Assembly: GCA_903927965.1 (NCBI GenBank)
Contig: CAIYPA010000145.1
Span: 1 to 35,182, forward strand
Reading direction: 5' to 3'
Length of the DNA: 35,182 bases
From: an uncultured Bacteroidia bacterium
Lineage (GTDB): Bacteria > Bacteroidota > Bacteroidia > Bacteroidales > Prolixibacteraceae
A program made the position numbers and the translations under genes. The notes beneath the pieces were generated by a model. It had not been told where the DNA came from and did not search any database. It saw nothing but the letters and a program-made list of their open reading frames with translations. Shown here piece by piece: positions 1,421 to 8,055 of the stretch. Every line of letters begins with the position of its first letter. Within the stretch, counting starts at the first letter, position 1.

Positions 1421-1655
1421 TTATAGTTGCTTCTTTCCATACCTCGCTCCATCTTCTGCCACCATCCTTAACTCATCCTCTACCTTCATCTTTTCCCCCT
1501 TCCCACCTTTCTCCAATCCTTCTTTTGCCCGTTTTATCTGCTCCAGCAACTCCCTGGCATCACCATCGGTGGGGAGCTGCGGCACCAATTCGCCACGGAA
1601 GGCTTTGGCCAGCAGGGCTTGCGGCAATTGGTCCACCTTTGCGTTTAGTTTTAGG
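1421..1655 (-). pseudogene. hsdS 3'-end fragment (distal conserved region only)
   Basis: This frame encodes only the distal conserved tail of a type I specificity subunit: KVDQLPQALLAKAFRGELVP, then QLPTDGDARELLEQI. It has no target-recognition domain. About 90 bp (1566-1655) match 2584-2673 of the full hsdS with roughly six or seven differences by eye, in the same orientation. Unlike the full gene, the fragment continues straight from LPTD into GDARELLEQI, so it records the uninterrupted state of the site where a GIY-YIG domain sits in the intact gene. Its upstream end overlaps the last codons of the YgiT gene in another frame, so it has no plausible start of its own. It is a duplication remnant or a truncated silent cassette, not an independent gene. 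Confidence 0.85.
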
Positions 1656-2184: not shown

Positions 2185-2240
2185 TCTAGGCTTTTCATTT
2201 TTCATTCCCCCCTTCTCCATTCTTCGTTTTCCCTTCTCCC

Positions 2241-3824
2241 TTATTTTATTTTTACCGCTTTTGCTTTTTTGATCTCCTCCAGCAACTCCCTTGCATCCCC
2301 ACCCGCCTGCCTTAGCCGGTTTTCTTTTCCCATTTGTTTTAACCATTCACGACCTTTTCCCGATTTGAAAAATTTTTCGCGTTTTACCGCTTCTGCTTCC
2401 GATTTGAAGACCTCGTAATGGTAAACGTATAAAGGCTTATACTTGCTTGTATGTTCTGCCCCCTTTCCGGTTTTATGTTCCTCGTATCTGCGTTTAAGGT
2501 TGTTGGTAAAACCTTTATACAGAGAACCGTCAGAGCAGTAAAGCACATACGCGAAAAATTCGCCATTGCTACCGGCGGGCAGGTCGGTGGGGAGCTGCGG
2601 CACCAGTTCGCCACGGAAGGCTTTGGCCAGCAGGGCTTGTGGCAATTGGTCCACCTTTGCCTTTAACTTTTGGTAGCCCGCCTCAATCTGGTCGGCTTTG
2701 GCAAAAAGGGTCTCGACACGGCGGACGATTTCTTGCTGCTCAACCAATGGAGGAATACTAGCAATAAAATTTCTGACACCGCTAAGTGATACAGTTAATT
2801 GCGCAGTTCCTGTTGCTACATCCCTTGCTTGTTCCATGATTTTTGTTGAGCTTAATACAATCTGCAAAAAGGAAGAAATAATTTTAGAATTGTCCGGTTT
2901 TAGAATTGCAATATGTCTTTGAAAACAGAATTCTCCTTCAAAATCAACCAAAATTGGAATACCAAATGAACCAGTAACTGTATAAAGCACATCCCCTTTC
3001 TTTGGAATTCTTGTATCTTTTAACGATTCAAAATAGCTTCTTGGAACAAACCTTGTAATACTTTCAAAATCAAAAAAACCTTTACTGACATTGGAAATTA
3101 CTAGAAATGGGATTCCTTCTTTAACCTGCGGAGGTGCTTGATGATCACCATCCGTTATTGATTTGCAGACAGATTTTAACTCAATATCTTGCCATTCCCC
3201 CAACTCTCTCCCTTCCCTCCACTCCTCTGTCAGTTTGCCGGTTACGGCCTGGGTCAATACTTTTTGGCGGAACTCTTTGATTAACTGCGGGATACGTTCG
3301 AGGCGGGTTTTCAGCGCATCGAGGTGCCCAAACAACGAATCGAGCTTGTCCACAATGCGCTGCTGCTCGGGAAGTGGGGGAACGGGTATTGGGGCTTTTT
3401 CAAACCGGCCTTTATTTATTATCGAGACTGTTGTTGCTGAAGAATTTTCATAGAGCCATTCTTTTAAAGTAAGAGCATAGTAAAAACCAAAAACCGGGTT
3501 TACTATAGAACTATTGAATACCACACTATTGATTTGCTGATTTGTTGTTGCAGGTCTATCAAGTATTCCAATTTTCCCTAAATTACCTATGCAAGAAACC
3601 ATTACAGAATTTTGTGGAAGAAGTCTTGCTATTGATGCACCTGATTCTGTTAATGTCTCTTCAAATTTAATGATTTTCCTATCCAGTAAATCACCCGGTT
3701 TAATCCAAGGAATATTGCCTCCAAAATGTTCAATATTCTTCTTGGGAGGAGTATTCCCTGTCACAACATCACCAACATCCTTAAGTTGACTTAAACCCCA
3801 CCCTTTTGGTAATTCCTTCTCCAT
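2241..3824 (-). CDS. hsdS: Type I restriction-modification specificity subunit HsdS with inserted GIY-YIG domain
   Basis: A 527-aa DNA-recognition subunit. Target-recognition domain 1 covers about residues 1-150. The central conserved helix region starts PPLPEQQRIVDKLDSLF (149-165) and ends near LTQAVTGKL. Domain 2 covers about 210-355, and the distal conserved region begins PPLVEQQEIVRRVETLF. This is the standard two-half HsdS layout that sets the two halves of the bipartite site. The oddity is at 415-508: a GIY-YIG nuclease-like domain (YVLYCSDGSLYKGFT, LKRRYEEH, KREKFFK) interrupts the distal tail between LPTD and GDARELLEEI, in frame. That makes the protein longer than the usual 400-450 aa. 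It sits 330 bp downstream of hsdM on the same strand, behind palindromic repeats. Recognition sequence cannot be read from the gene. Confidence 0.95.
   Translation of the reverse strand: MEKELPKGWGLSQLKDVGDVVTGNTPPKKNIEHFGGNIPWIKPGDLLDRKIIKFEETLTESGASIARLLPQNSVMVSCIGNLGKIGILDRPATTNQQINSVVFNSSIVNPVFGFYYALTLKEWLYENSSATTVSIINKGRFEKAPIPVPPLPEQQRIVDKLDSLFGHLDALKTRLERIPQLIKEFRQKVLTQAVTGKLTEEWREGRELGEWQDIELKSVCKSITDGDHQAPPQVKEGIPFLVISNVSKGFFDFESITRFVPRSYFESLKDTRIPKKGDVLYTVTGSFGIPILVDFEGEFCFQRHIAILKPDNSKIISSFLQIVLSSTKIMEQARDVATGTAQLTVSLSGVRNFIASIPPLVEQQEIVRRVETLFAKADQIEAGYQKLKAKVDQLPQALLAKAFRGELVPQLPTDLPAGSNGEFFAYVLYCSDGSLYKGFTNNLKRRYEEHKTGKGAEHTSKYKPLYVYHYEVFKSEAEAVKREKFFKSGKGREWLKQMGKENRLRQAGGDARELLEEIKKAKAVKIK
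2301..2582 (-). mobile_element. In-frame GIY-YIG nuclease insertion within hsdS, with imperfect terminal inverted repeats
   Basis: Comparison with the uninterrupted hsdS tail at 1421-1655 delimits an extra 282 bp (94 codons) between the codons for LPTD and GDAREL. The ends are imperfect inverted repeats. In coding orientation it begins CTGCCCGCCGGT and ends ACCGGCTAAGGCAGGCGGGT, sharing CTGCC and GCCGGT in inverted arrangement. The encoded domain has the GIY-YIG core as VLYCSDGSLYKGFT, an Arg in LKRRYEEH and a Glu in KREKFFKS, as in small UvrC/URI-like nucleases. Length is a multiple of three and no stop is introduced, so hsdS stays open. I infer a homing-type or palindrome-associated cassette. 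Whether the domain cuts DNA is unknown. Confidence 0.75.
2584..2673. repeat. Direct repeat of hsdS distal region (partner at 1566-1655)
   Basis: This 90-bp block inside hsdS matches 1566-1655 in the same orientation with about six or seven mismatches by eye. The two copies bracket the YgiT gene and the inverted repeats. Recombination between them would delete about 1 kb including ygiT and the GIY-YIG insertion, leaving a shorter hsdS tail. Confidence 0.8.
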
Positions 3825-4018
3825 TTAACTATTTTGTATATGCCTATATTTCAATTAATTGCATTATCATCCTTTTGTACGGTCAATTGGTTTGTTCAAC
3901 CCCTTCGGGGCTGCGGCCACCGCTCCTTGCCAATTCGTGGGTTTCCCTTTCGACTTCGCTCAAGGTTCACTCACGGTAGAACGCACCTTTCACCGAACCT
4001 GCTCCGCAAGGGAGGATC

Positions 4019-4080
4019 TTTTATCGTTATTTTCGACCTGACAGCGTTGAAAACCTGTCAGCGTCAAAATAACGATAAAA
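4019..4080. repeat. Long palindrome between hsdM and hsdS
   Basis: Perfect 15-nt outer arms TTTTATCGTTATTTT (4019-4033) and AAAATAACGATAAAA (4066-4080) enclose an inner CTGACAG/CTGTCAG pair. With the hairpin at 4098-4161 and GC-rich small hairpins near 3898-3960, it fills the 330-bp gap between hsdM and hsdS. I see no gene in that gap. A stem this strong could attenuate hsdS transcription. Confidence 0.75.
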
Positions 4081-4097
4081 TGTTGATCGTGCTTCCA

Positions 4098-4161
4098 ATC
4101 TAAAAACGCTGACAGGACCTTCGGACGCTGTCAGGTTTTTAGAGTGTCATGTTTTTAGATT
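4098..4161 (-). repeat. Hairpin overlapping the hsdM stop codon
   Basis: AATCTAAAAAC (4098-4108) pairs with GTTTTTAGATT (4151-4161), and an inner CGCTGACAGG/CTGTCAGG pair strengthens the stem. The right arm includes the hsdM stop codon at 4155-4157. It may terminate or stabilise the hsdM transcript. It shares the CTGACAG core with the neighbouring palindrome. Confidence 0.55.
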
Positions 4162-5615
4162 GACAACTCCTTGATAATTGCATCCAGTTCGCCCATGATA
4201 TTTTTCAGCTCCAAAACGGCTTCTTTGGCAATGTCGATCGGATCGTCGAGGTCATCGCCATTGCTGAGCGAACTGTCGGCAATCAGGCCAAGATCGAGAG
4301 AGTCGTTCTTTTTGGCAATCTGCTCGCGTGTGAGGCACTGCCACCGTTCGTCGGTTACCGTTGCGCGTTTTTTGTCGTCAACCTTCCCATCGTATTCTAG
4401 GCCAACATTTTCGGTGGTCAGGCCTCCGGTATAGGCTTTGATAAAACCATCAAAAGCCGCCAAAGTAAAAGGGGTGCGTTTCCCATAATTTGGGGTGTTG
4501 GTGCGCATATCGTAAACCCACACCTTTTCGGTGTTGCCCGTTTCGGTAGTGCCACGTTCAAAAAAGAGCACATTGGTCTTTACCCCCTGGGCATAGAATA
4601 TCCCGGTTGGCAACCGCAGGATCGTATGGAGGCGGCATTTGTCCATCAGGTCGCGGCGGATTTTGGCACCATCCCCATCTTCAAACAACACATTATCAGG
4701 CAATACCACAGCCGCCCTTGCCCCACCCTTTTTGTGCAGCGAGCGGTAAATGTGCTGCAAAAAGTTAAGTTGCTTGTTGGCGGTGGGGTAAGTAAAATCG
4801 TCGCGGCTTGGGCGTTCGCCCCCCTGTTTGGTCCCGAAAGGTGGATTGGCCAATACGCCGTCGTATCCTTTGAGGCTTTTCCCAAAATCGCTTAGCGTGT
4901 CGTTGAGATAAATGGTGCTGTCGAGGCCGTGCAGTTTGGCGTTCATCAGGGCAAGGCGGTGCGCATCCTGAACCAGTTCAACACCACTCAAGGCTGTGGT
5001 CTGCTGGAAAACGCGGGTCTTCTCGTCCTTGTAAATGTAATCGTGCCGGTTGATCAGGTATTGGTTGATCGAGATCGGGAAACCGAAAGTGCCACAGGCA
5101 GGATCGTTCCACCGTTCCCCCAATTTTGGGACCACCAGATCGACCATCACATTAATTAAGGGGCGTGGCGTAAAATATTGACCTGCACCACTTTTCTTCT
5201 CGCCGGCGTTGCGTTCGAGCAGGTCTTCGTAAATATCGCCCATCACATCGCGGTCGTGCTCGTCGTACCAATCGAGCAGGTCGATGCTCGTCACCAACGA
5301 TTTAAGGTTCACAGGCTTGCGCAAAGTCGAAGAGGCATTTGTAAAGATCTCTTTGATATTGGGGTTGTCGCTTTTCGTGCTGATGGTCGCAAGCAGTTCG
5401 CGGTAGGTATCGAACAAATCTTTGTTGTCCTTGATGCTTTTCAACTTCTGCCAGCGGTATTCTTCGGGCAGCTCGTTTTCAAAACCTTTTACTTCGCTCA
5501 GTTTCAGGAAAAGGATGTAGGTCAACTCGTTGAGGTATTGGTGGTAAGTCACCCCGTCGTCGCGGAGCAGGTTACACAATCCCCAGAGTTTGGCGGCTAT
5601 TTCTTCTGCACTCAT
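4155..5615 (-). CDS. hsdM: Type I restriction-modification DNA N6-adenine methyltransferase HsdM
   Basis: A 486-aa methyltransferase subunit that with HsdS methylates adenine at the host's target site. The helical N-terminal domain (1-130, LWGLCNLLRDDGVTYHQYLN) is typical. The AdoMet-binding motif reads DPACGTFGF at 171-179 and the catalytic motif IV reads NPPFG at 257-261. Length is normal. One point to note: motif I is usually DPACGTGGF, and the second glycine is Phe here. This may be a subfamily variant or reduce cofactor binding. The ATG at 5615 gives the full N-terminal domain. hsdS follows after 330 bp. hsdR lies about 3.4 kb upstream on the same strand, separated by plus-strand stability cassettes. 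Confidence 0.95.
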   Translation of the reverse strand: MSAEEIAAKLWGLCNLLRDDGVTYHQYLNELTYILFLKLSEVKGFENELPEEYRWQKLKSIKDNKDLFDTYRELLATISTKSDNPNIKEIFTNASSTLRKPVNLKSLVTSIDLLDWYDEHDRDVMGDIYEDLLERNAGEKKSGAGQYFTPRPLINVMVDLVVPKLGERWNDPACGTFGFPISINQYLINRHDYIYKDEKTRVFQQTTALSGVELVQDAHRLALMNAKLHGLDSTIYLNDTLSDFGKSLKGYDGVLANPPFGTKQGGERPSRDDFTYPTANKQLNFLQHIYRSLHKKGGARAAVVLPDNVLFEDGDGAKIRRDLMDKCRLHTILRLPTGIFYAQGVKTNVLFFERGTTETGNTEKVWVYDMRTNTPNYGKRTPFTLAAFDGFIKAYTGGLTTENVGLEYDGKVDDKKRATVTDERWQCLTREQIAKKNDSLDLGLIADSSLSNGDDLDDPIDIAKEAVLELKNIMGELDAIIKELSI

Positions 5616-5741
5616 CTATCTAGTTTTATGCTTATTAATCAGTTTGGCAAAAGTGGCGATTTTAAACCAGAGGAGGAACAATTATTGTGAGATTAATGAA
5701 TGGTTAGCTCTTTATTTGTTAGGACGATCTCCCTCCTGAAA

Positions 5742-5932
5742 CTGTCATTGCGAACCCTGCTTCTGAATATCAAATTGTTAGTAGGATTATGATGCAGGGT
5801 GAAGCAATCCCATGTTCGAAGCACAGTCCAAAACATTGTTTTCTGGCAAGGTGCTCATTATTTTGGGATTGCTTTGGCGTGCAAATGTTTATCCTTTAAA
5901 TTTAGATTGTGCCGCACGCCGCGCAATGACAG
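5742..5932. repeat. 191-bp inverted-repeat element (CTGTCATTGCG ends)
   Basis: CTGTCATTGCG at 5742-5752 is mirrored by CGCAATGACAG at 5922-5932. Each half contains its own small hairpin (ACCCTGC/GCAGGGT and GGCGTGC/GCACGCC) plus GAAGCAATCCCA/TGGGATTGCTT in inverted order. This is a nested palindromic element of the kind dispersed through Bacteroidota intergenic DNA. The 1070-bp stretch between hsdM and the XRE gene holds four such repeats and no credible gene. Confidence 0.75.
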
Positions 5933-5990
5933 GTCCAGAGCGTGAGAGTGCCGTCAGGTTGTTTGTTTTAAGTGATAGCTTGCCCCGATT

Positions 5991-6025
5991 TAGTGATAGC
6001 CTGACTTCAAGTCAGACTATCACTA
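5991..6025. repeat. TAGTGATAGCCTGACTT inverted repeat, compact copy
   Basis: Two 17-nt arms, TAGTGATAGCCTGACTT and its complement, are separated by one base. The right arm differs from a perfect complement at one position. It is the compact form of the spaced repeat at 2118-2184. A degenerate half-copy (AGTGATAGCTTG) lies at 5971. Confidence 0.75.
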
Positions 6026-6095
6026 GCTCCCCGTTGACCACATTCCGCTACAGGAAGGTTAACAGCTATTTAAAATAGCAGCAAGTTAATCCAGT

Positions 6096-6175
6096 GAGCG
6101 TTCGGGTCCCGCGATTTCCAATCGCGGCAAAAAAGGCGACAAATGGCGATTGGAAATCGCCAGACCCGAACGCTC
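6096..6175. repeat. 80-bp palindrome with 30-nt arms
   Basis: The arm 6096-6125 (starting GAGCGTTCGGGTC) is complementary to 6146-6175 (ending GACCCGAACGCTC) with about two mismatches, around a 20-nt loop. The inner part contains GCGATTTCCAATCGC-type smaller palindromes. The frames open across it look like by-products of the palindrome. Confidence 0.75.
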
Positions 6176-6345
6176 CCGTCTCCCGGAATAATCCCCTTGG
6201 TTTGTAACAGCTTGTTCCTGCCTGCCCCGGTTTTCGGGGATTTATCGGAGAGGGGGAAATGGCTAGTCGTTTGCAACGATGGTTTGTACAGATCAATTCG
6301 ATTTCAAAATTTTGAAGGCAATTCAATATCCTAAGTTGGTCAAAT

Positions 6346-6509
6346 TCCCTGAAAGGGATACATAACAATAGCCCTGGGTAAGTGGTCTCGAGCTTAAAAC
6401 CCAAAAATGCGCCTATGTTTTCTGGACCACGCCACCCAGGGTAACGAAACAGCACAGCAAACCCGTCCGCGATCGGAGGTCCGGAAAAATAAAAGCTCCC
6501 TTCGGACGG
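6346..6509. repeat. Two-hairpin structured element, copy A (upstream of XRE cassette)
   Basis: It begins with the palindrome TCCCT-GAA-AGGGA (6346-6358). Stem 1 pairs CCCTGGGT (6372-6379) and GTGGTC (6382-6387) with GACCAC (6425-6430) and ACCCAGGG (6434-6441). Stem 2 pairs CCGTCCG (6463-6469) with CGGACGG (6503-6509). Copy B at 8266-8433 has the same order of parts with paired substitutions. Confidence 0.7.
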
Positions 6510-6657
6510 AAATGAAAAGCCCTTCTTGGCAAATAAAGATATTATCAGGAACCCCAATATCTTGATGGATAGGTTGAACCCAATTCAGCGTTCCGGATTG
6601 ATGGTGCTTCATTTCAAAATAATGTTACAAATATATGGTTAATATTTATTAATTGTG

Positions 6658-6665
6658 TAATTTTG
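6658..6665 (+). promoter_or_regulatory. Putative -7 element of the XRE/ImmA/PIN operon
   Basis: TAATTTTG fits the Bacteroidota TAnnTTTG -7 box and lies 20 nt before the ATG at 6686. The surrounding GTGTAATTTTGT is shared with the promoter region of the RelB/ParE pair at 8482. No clear -33 TTTG is seen at the right distance. Confidence 0.45.
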
Positions 6666-6685
6666 TAACAAATATCAATCCAGCC

Positions 6686-7027
6686 ATGTCCGCAAATATC
6701 GGAAGAAACATTAAATTATTTAGGGAAAAGTCTGGCATAAGTCAGGAAGAAATAGCTGATTACGTAGGGATTAAGCGGGAAGTCCTATCTTATTATGAGA
6801 ATGAGAAGCGGGAGGTTTCGCTATTACATTTGGGAAAGATTGCTGACTACCTGAATATAGATTTGGAATCATTTCTTGAAGAAGATCCAACGGAAATAAA
6901 ACCCGACCTGGCCCTTGCATTCCGGGCCAATGAATTGACCCCTTCAGATCGGGACCAAATTGTCTTTTTCAAAAGGGTGGTGAAAAATTTCCTAAAAATG
7001 AAAAATTTGGAAACCAATGGATTATAA
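6686..7027 (+). CDS. XRE-family HTH regulator of the ImmA/PIN cassette
   Basis: A 113-aa DNA-binding protein. Residues about 5-60 (IGRNIKLFREKSGISQEEIA, then YVGIKREVLSYYENEKREVS) are a Cro/C1-type helix-turn-helix with the usual Gln-Glu turn and YYEN recognition-helix end. The short C-terminal part is helical. I chose the ATG at 6686 over an upstream TTG at 6653 because the putative promoter at 6658-6665 would lie inside the longer version. The stop overlaps the next gene by 11 bp, so the two are translationally coupled. In XRE/ImmA (COG2856) pairs the protease cleaves or inactivates the repressor, so this protein probably autoregulates the cassette. Confidence 0.85.
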   Translation: MSANIGRNIKLFREKSGISQEEIADYVGIKREVLSYYENEKREVSLLHLGKIADYLNIDLESFLEEDPTEIKPDLALAFRANELTPSDRDQIVFFKRVVKNFLKMKNLETNGL

Positions 7028-7739
7028 GACCAGAATTGATACCATGGATTTCAGGAACCGTTATGGATACAACGTAACGGAACCGATCAATCTAATCAGT
7101 CTTTTACACCGATTGGATATCCTCGCAATATTTAAACCATTAAGTGAAGATTTTTCGGGAATTTCGATCAAAATAGACAACAATCGGTTTATGATGGTAA
7201 ATTGTGATCATTCTCTTGGAAGGCAGAATTTTACAATTGCACATGAATTGTACCATCTATATTTTGATAAATCTTTTGAACCTCATAAATGCCATACCGG
7301 ACTGTTTCCCAAAAATAAACCTGGCGAGCGGATTGCCGACAATTTTGCGGCACAATTGCTTTTACCTCAGGAGGGGCTTTTGCAATTGATTCCGGAAGGC
7401 GAAATGGAAAAGGATAAGATTCAATTGGCAACCATCCTAAAGTTGGAACAAACTTATGGTTCCTCGCGTTCAGCTCTATTGAATCAATTGGAAAAAATGG
7501 GATTGACAACCAAGGGTTTTGATGAAAAATATCAAAAATCTGTAAAGACAATTGCGCGTCAACATGGCTATTCGATTGATTTGTATGAACCTACCACCGA
7601 AAAGGCAATTCTGGGTACATTTGGTTCACTTGCCACTAAACTTTTTGAAAAGGATCAGATTTCGGAAAGCCATTATCTGGAGCTAATGATGTCGATCGGT
7701 ATCGATGTGAATGAAATTTCAACCGATGATGAACATTGA
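7017..7739 (+). CDS. ImmA/IrrE family metallopeptidase
   Basis: A 240-aa zinc peptidase-like protein. The HExxH motif is in FTIAHELYHLYF (His76, Glu77, His80) and the third zinc ligand is probably Glu104 in GERIADNFAAQLLLP, the standard COG2856 layout. The C-terminal 90 residues are helical and less conserved. The family includes ImmA of ICEBs1, which cleaves its XRE repressor, and IrrE/PprI of Deinococcus. Overlaps of 11 bp with the XRE gene before it and 14 bp with the PIN-like gene after it indicate a three-gene operon. The likely substrate is the upstream XRE protein, which is inference from known pairs. Confidence 0.9.
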   Translation: MDYKTRIDTMDFRNRYGYNVTEPINLISLLHRLDILAIFKPLSEDFSGISIKIDNNRFMMVNCDHSLGRQNFTIAHELYHLYFDKSFEPHKCHTGLFPKNKPGERIADNFAAQLLLPQEGLLQLIPEGEMEKDKIQLATILKLEQTYGSSRSALLNQLEKMGLTTKGFDEKYQKSVKTIARQHGYSIDLYEPTTEKAILGTFGSLATKLFEKDQISESHYLELMMSIGIDVNEISTDDEH

Positions 7740-8055
7740 TCCAGCAAAAAAAATTATTCTTGATGCCGATGTAATCATCCACTTTAGTAAAGGAGGTCAA
7801 TTGGGTATTTTGCCACAAATTTTCCCCAATTGCCGGTTTCATCACGACGTTATTGGGAGTAGCAACCTCAAAGACATCAGGTTATATTGTGAAGAAAATA
7901 ACATTGATTACCTTACAACAATGGACTTTCTTGCAGAAGCTTACCACACAAACAAGCTGGATGAAGCCGCATGTGACTTTTTTATTTACAATGTCAAACT
8001 TAAAGGAAGTAAATTGCCCTGCGATTCGATAGCTGAATACCTGAATTTAAAATAG
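7726..8055 (+). CDS. PIN-like protein, probably internally shortened
   Basis: A 109-aa product. Its start, IILDADVIIHF, is a classic PIN-domain first strand with the first acidic residue, and the later SSNLKDIRLYCEEN and YLTTMDFLAEA resemble the second half of a PIN fold. Between the two halves only about 20 residues remain. A PIN domain normally needs 120-130 residues, with a second conserved acidic residue in the part missing here. I infer an in-frame internal deletion that probably removes nuclease activity. ATGs at 7726 and 7729 are both possible and overlap the protease gene. As third gene of the cassette it would be the toxin or effector. The PIN assignment is moderately sure; the deletion needs comparison with homologues. 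Confidence 0.6.
   Translation: MMNIDPAKKIILDADVIIHFSKGGQLGILPQIFPNCRFHHDVIGSSNLKDIRLYCEENNIDYLTTMDFLAEAYHTNKLDEAACDFFIYNVKLKGSKLPCDSIAEYLNLK

Follow-up and report, generated by a model that had tools for sequence, protein, structure and literature searches.

The current analysis describes what is probably a homing-like mobile element that inserts in frame without splicing, consists of a single GIY-YIG domain bordered by short inverted ends, and colonizes defence genes. Its mobility appears well supported. Selfish nucleases have been described in introns and inteins and as free-standing genes, settings in which the host escapes damage through splicing or spacing; here, the host seems to be spared by in-frame insertion and by the permanence of the insert in the protein. 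A concentration in anti-phage genes would tie selfish spread to the traffic of defence systems between distant bacteria. The existence of filled and empty paralogues in one genome also makes the question of homing directly testable. In practical terms, some HsdR, HsdM, and HsdS proteins in the databases carry such passengers, which could mislead annotation.

The point of departure is a type I specificity gene in the window, by which we mean the entire 35,182-nucleotide stretch of DNA that was analysed. This hsdS (positions 2241 to 3824, minus strand; 527 aa) was recognized as an ORF with Pfam PF01420 and PADLOC Specificity_I matches, and hsdM (4155 to 5615; 486 aa; ORF with Pfam N6_Mtase and HsdM_N) lies 5' of it on the same strand. 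An initial annotation had proposed that hsdS contains 94 extra codons encoding a GIY-YIG nuclease at positions 2301 to 2582. The insert is indeed present, although these coordinates were off by one, as it occupies positions 2302 to 2583 (minus strand, 282 bp). Pfam PF01541 matches the insert alone at 50.3 bits and the insert within the 527-aa HsdS at 45.8 bits, with a cut-off of 22.6. The catalytic domain spans HsdS residues 424-490 (2355 to 2555, minus strand) and comes after both Methylase_S stretches, to which Pfam assigns the remainder of the protein; the AlphaFold model of the insert, built from 37 alignment rows, has a mean pLDDT of 90. Approximately 1 kb away, a decayed duplicate of the hsdS tail (1421 to 1655, minus strand) retains the empty site, just as had been claimed, with the junction falling between positions 1565 and 1566. 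This copy reads CCCACCGA followed directly by TGGTGATGCC, straight across the insert position, and its alignment to the filled gene yields the insert as one clean gap: CCCACCGA, then the insert or nothing, then TGG. Relative to the neighbouring empty copy, the insertion is precise, with zero bases duplicated or lost, and the flanks of the two copies differ at 2 of the last 77 bases upstream and at 7 of 44 downstream. The upstream end of the element is CCTGCCCGCC (2574 to 2583, minus strand) and the downstream end is GGCAGGCGGG (2302 to 2311, minus strand). As the initial annotation had noticed, these are imperfect inverted repeats, 8 of 10 terminal bases matching by eye, and ends of this type reappear at unrelated hosts, including HsdM, HsdR, and ISP genes; the ten bases of the downstream end are identical in 7 of the 9 C-terminal-site HsdM inserts that were read. 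Within its own genome, the exact end pattern is found only at the window element and no further copies were detected; the five matches obtained with one mismatch allowed are rarer than those of the backward control (25). The same genome has four other GIY-YIG matches, which are 32-48% identical. Between both hsdS copies, on the minus strand at 1651-1881, there is also an ORF of about 76 aa with the look, by eye, of a YgiT-type zinc finger.

An alignment of three inserts was scanned against a collection of one genome per species (84,980 species), and 65 related loci were found: 37 lie within another gene, 3 are small ORFs just upstream of hsdS, and 25 are stand-alone. Pfam, PADLOC, and in some cases sequence similarity identify the 37 host genes as HsdM (10), HsdR (10), HsdS (7), Type ISP (4), HmaB/DUF1156 (2), HmaA-type SNF2 helicase (2), AbiEii (1), and UvrD-PDDEXK (1). 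All are DNA-processing or defence proteins, 34 according to Pfam or PADLOC and 3 by sequence similarity (HsdS at L027 and L041, HsdM at L042); the HmaB call at L056 comes from PADLOC only and the ISP call at L072 from its likeness to L058. Save perhaps for the UvrD-PDDEXK protein, all 37 hosts are anti-phage genes, a count to be read with the composition of the query in mind, as it was built from three restriction-modification inserts and may favour defence hosts. The embedded loci carry the labels of 16 phyla in the domain tree, with the proviso that most derive from metagenome bins and some labels may be wrong. HsdR alone is occupied at no fewer than four different sites, as read from the loci. 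A stop or a break in the frame disrupts four of the 37 embedded copies (L041, L052, L056, and L060), and L072 is cut by a contig end; in L056 and L060, the stop lies inside the GIY-YIG domain itself, as would be expected of decaying selfish elements. Among eight whole genomes chosen for their known loci, 11 of 19 GIY-YIG matches are in long frames, ten being known and one new, within an HsdR named by eye, and the genome of L052 contains an additional filled HsdM. Two scans of viral contigs revealed no viral relatives, searches of phages and plasmids with three different inserts returned only matches under 60% identity, and NCBIfam had no family covering the insert among the proteins scanned. 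The lack of near relatives in the viral, phage, and plasmid collections counts against the mobile-element reading.

The inverted ends are the second defining feature. For the end count, 30 of the 37 embedded loci were used, with six HsdS N-terminal-site loci counted apart and L072 left out. Motifs of the CCTGCC...GGCAGG type are present on the left at 25 of these loci, on the right at 24, and on both sides at 23, the pair being absent from the other 7. The initial annotation had suggested searching unrelated genes for the insert and its ends; ends of this type were indeed present there around related domains, while its portrayal of the element as an hsdS insertion was too narrow, as the element is not bound to HsdS and resides in several kinds of defence gene. 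Neither motif was found around any of 23 stand-alone genes (from the 25, the short L071 and L082 were left out), nor in 300 shuffles of the flanks; the motifs were drawn up from the same loci in which they were then counted, which makes the stand-alone genes the fairer control. The window element is outside the 30-locus count and fits both motifs by eye. Terminal inverted repeats, a trait of DDE transposons and MITEs, are thus present at 23 of 30 loci and imperfect in the window. The HsdS N-terminal-site loci have a palindrome upstream, with the left motif at four of six and the right at none, and the three hsdS-adjacent loci have the left motif once and the right never. Among the 23 elements with both ends, which measure 279-324 bp, all except L052 (286 bp) have a length divisible by three. 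At 13 hand-picked sites, the base preceding the element is A in 10 and the base before that is G in 12. Insertion occurs mostly after NGA, within a split Asp codon, and adds a multiple of three bases.

An in-frame ATG precedes the domain in a single one of the 22 elements with ends that were inspected, and in no case is a start codon, whether before the domain or at it, accompanied by an SD-like site. It is therefore probable that the nuclease is not produced by itself but only together with its host protein, which agrees with the earlier proposal that the element uses the host frame as its start. Given that the insert is in frame and without sign of splicing, the nuclease is also probably only a lobe of the host protein. 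Within the inserts scanned, Pfam gave GIY-YIG only, with no separate DNA-binding region of the kind by which homing elements recognize a long target, a point that speaks against homing. A model of HsdM was considered for placing the domain within its host and was set aside, its mean pLDDT of 73 being too weak for the purpose. An endonuclease domain inserted in frame at conserved positions is also what a degenerate intein or intron would present, but such an origin is extremely improbable: the 94 codons comprise the GIY-YIG domain plus short linkers, Pfam gave no splicing domain in the proteins scanned, and Rfam had no match in window positions 2200-2700 at E up to 1 and only one tRNA at gathering scores in eight other loci.

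Empty sites are found well beyond the window. When 296 genomes from the phylum of the window were searched with the part of HsdS just upstream of the insert (E up to 1e-12), six other HsdS homologues were recovered, all six lacking the GIY-YIG domain. For HsdM, the best 30 loci from 395 genomes are empty in 29 cases and filled in one, despite the use of a filled HsdM as query. When the filled hsdM of L030 is compared with the empty L090 and L091, a single 297-bp gap between GA and TG separates them, with no duplication; a target site duplication, which DDE transposons and MITEs would leave, was absent from all three filled-empty comparisons. Filled and empty alleles at one defined site, as are typical of homing, hence occur in the window and for HsdM, L030, ISP, and HsdS. 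The initial annotation had reasoned that a lack of empty sites and of shared ends would point to an ancestral fusion, and had instead favoured an in-frame element with terminal inverted repeats, of the homing or protein-coding repeat type. Both empty sites and shared ends were found, which lends support to the latter interpretation.

The most direct indication of movement comes from a metagenome bin, G395, with four Type ISP paralogues, three of them filled and the fourth empty at the same place. The DNA of the three inserts is 94% (274/291), 98% (179/183), and 96% (175/183) identical, the shorter comparisons reflecting the contig end that cuts L072, whereas the adjoining 60-bp (20-codon) windows of the flanks are 67-78% identical and other windows as little as 37%. 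Since the inserts are far closer than their flanks and one paralogue is empty, whole-gene exchange alone would be insufficient to account for this pattern. Near-identical inserts in three diverged paralogues imply what would be recent copying. Outside G395, the similarity between inserts often does not exceed that between their hosts: L061, which comes from another genome, shares 76% identity with L059 across the insert and 71-83% in the upstream region, and most HsdR pairs show lower conservation of the insert than of the host portions. HsdR inserts have diverged about as much as their hosts. This parity fits old insertions passed on with the gene. The insertions in G395 thus look recent, and many of those elsewhere look old. 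The HsdR parity is also compatible with an old functional fusion, in which the nuclease would be an accessory cutting lobe of restriction or defence proteins, inherited and exchanged together with the whole gene. Such a lobe would suit hosts that are all DNA-processing or defence proteins, and whole-gene transfer would fit two Prevotellaceae loci, L033 and L034, in which 224 of 225 insert bases and 92 of 93 bases of the upstream part are identical. Nevertheless, we consider a fusion of this kind distinctly unlikely, as empty sites are the rule, the G395 paralogues have inserts far closer than their flanks, and the sites within HsdR are several.

The domain tree (62 rows, 85 columns; L071, L072, L078, and L082 were dropped as too short) has many unresolved forks, and it separates 40 embedded or hsdS-adjacent domains plus 1 stand-alone from 21 stand-alone ones with a branch support of 95/82. 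Domains from the same type of host gene tend to cluster even when they come from different phyla, although only partially, as the host type changes 15 times. A tree of HsdM was built solely from the region upstream of the insert, and on it the filled genes require two changes, which are forced by starred branches; gain and loss of the insert are indistinguishable in this tree, its empty rows come from the window's phylum only and its filled rows from many phyla, and three rows have long branches. The UPF0213 GIY-YIG proteins, with solved structures 1zg2 and 1ywl, are the nearest solved sequences and folds to the embedded domains. These were deposited as proteins of 96-107 residues, whereas the embedded domains stand apart from most sampled stand-alone relatives.

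With its central Arg and C-terminal Glu, the domain belongs to the GIY-YIG superfamily. Across all 40 aligned domains, fourteen columns do not vary, among them R25, H29, and E62, the catalytic-type Arg, His, and Glu, so that the Arg and Glu previously read from the insert by the initial annotation are both upheld. Furthermore, dN is lower than dS in all 11 pairs compared, dS being saturated in three of them; for L058/L059, the values are 0.029 and 0.181. Together, the invariant columns and the dN and dS values indicate that the domain is kept under selection. This bears on the possibility that it is the palindromic ends that move, through the action of another enzyme such as a REP-type Y1 transposase, with the GIY-YIG domain as cargo trapped between two palindromes. 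Short palindromes with similar ends do exist without any nuclease, the HsdS N-terminal-site loci have a palindrome on one side only, and in L048 a HmaB-type methylase frame (4317-7790) with several palindromes contains a Y1_Tnp match just below the Pfam cut-off (22.4 vs 23 bits). However, the domain is kept under selection, and the domains around which the ends are found, in many different hosts, belong to one side of the GIY-YIG tree; accordingly, we regard this scenario as unlikely.

The short palindromes themselves are in frame within host genes of these loci, have ends similar to those of the nuclease element, and read as DLPA...QAG or similar. Such mini-elements were scanned in six genomes, five in which palindromes had already been listed plus the genome of L058, where the pattern CCTGCCTGC-N4-30-GCAGGCAGG has 29 genome-wide matches and its backward control has 0. 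Lengths are divisible by three in 25 of the 29, and 21 are inside defence or helicase frames (HsdR, HsdM, HmaA, HmaB, PglX-type, SNF2-HKD, and UvrD), assigned via Pfam and PADLOC results except for two HsdR cases recognized by sequence motif. All 21 of the latter have lengths divisible by three, as an unbroken frame demands. Two others, ahead of the recognized domain in Schlafen and DUF1156 frames, are not divisible by three, and the remaining six are in frames that were not scanned or in which no family was found. The mini-elements are probably non-autonomous derivatives, partners, or relatives of the nuclease element. They resemble the Rickettsia palindromic elements, which are likewise palindromic and in frame within protein genes; the latter are not known to carry a nuclease or to be tied to defence genes. 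In REP elements moved by TnpA-REP, a tag sequence adjoins the palindrome. A plain 18-base palindrome, CTGCCTGCCGGCAGGCAG, was considered as an in-frame element by itself. It occurs in 27 of the 395 genomes searched from the window's phylum, with up to 13 copies per genome, and is absent from the window's genome, where its backward control has 4 matches per strand. Among 28 loci read, the longest frame across the palindrome is under 200 aa in 22 and the palindrome is at or near a frame end in 6, and this candidate was consequently rejected.

Based upon these features, the preferred reading of a homing-like nuclease element can be given a provisional mechanism. As a lobe of its host protein, the nuclease would most likely cut an allele or paralogue at its empty site, and the element would then be copied into the break during repair. 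In-frame insertion with neither duplication nor deletion would leave the host protein readable, and an insertion that splits an Asp codon, often one followed by Gly, may land in turns of the protein and leave its fold intact. On this reading, the family has spread over many phyla by way of the anti-phage defence genes that bacteria have in common. We infer the cutting by the element's own nuclease and the copying by repair, as well as the mobilization of the mini-elements and the reason why defence genes are hosts: these genes are perhaps favoured by being dispensable, tolerant, and constantly exchanged, such that empty sites keep arriving. More tentatively, it is quite possible that this represents a class of transposable element with a single protein domain as its coding unit, having neither a start nor splicing of its own, residing permanently inside defence proteins, existing both as full copies and as short in-frame palindromes, specialized on anti-phage systems, and perhaps reaching its targets through the contact with DNA that the host restriction protein provides.

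Two published cases come close to this. Dunin-Horkawicz et al. (2006) reported a GIY-YIG domain inserted at approximately residue 800 of HsdR in Methylococcus capsulatus (MCA0838), which has a close homologue of 80% identity without the domain, and stated that the insertion appears very recent (PMC1564403). The same survey called this insertion unique and asked whether other GIY-YIG proteins are molecular parasites (PMC1564403). As here, a type I R subunit contains a GIY-YIG domain that its homologue lacks, whereas the passages on MCA0838 make no mention of ends, an element family, other hosts, paralogue copies, or mini-elements (PMC1564403). The ShiLan element of Arsenault et al. (2025) shows homing-like insertion in phage DNA methylases, in which a lone LAGLIDADG insertion is mentioned as well (PMC11855218). 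ShiLan likewise exhibits no detectable splicing, an open host methylase frame, and a homing-like distribution, but it belongs to phages and its HNH nuclease is read in a different frame from a GTG start of its own, whereas the present elements encode GIY-YIG in the host frame of bacterial genomes and have shared ends (PMC11855218). One HsdR case (PMC1564403) and a phage analogue (PMC11855218) are thus already in print. Among the matches listed in a search of the open-access literature, which excludes bioRxiv and most subscription papers, no title or start of an abstract concerned the family, its ends, or the mini-elements.

Several additional observations pertain to loci at the margins of this family. 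At three Bacillota loci (L023, L024, and L025), the domain is the small ORF just upstream of hsdS, the latter identified by eye, and a palindrome or related repeat is close by. Stand-alone GIY-YIG genes in tandem or adjacent to tRNA genes were set aside as family members, none of the 23 stand-alone genes having the ends. Among them, L022 has at least seven closely similar ORFs in tandem (2980-5752), and tRNA genes are close to L015, L018, L019, L077, L079, L083, and L086, with L083 adjoining three tRNA-Asp copies. Finally, the HsdR frames of L046 (4254-8270, 1339 aa; the same gene as L013 and L020) and L049 (4263-8255, 1331 aa) contain in-frame DUF559 in addition to GIY-YIG, which makes DUF559 another type of domain inserted into HsdR genes.
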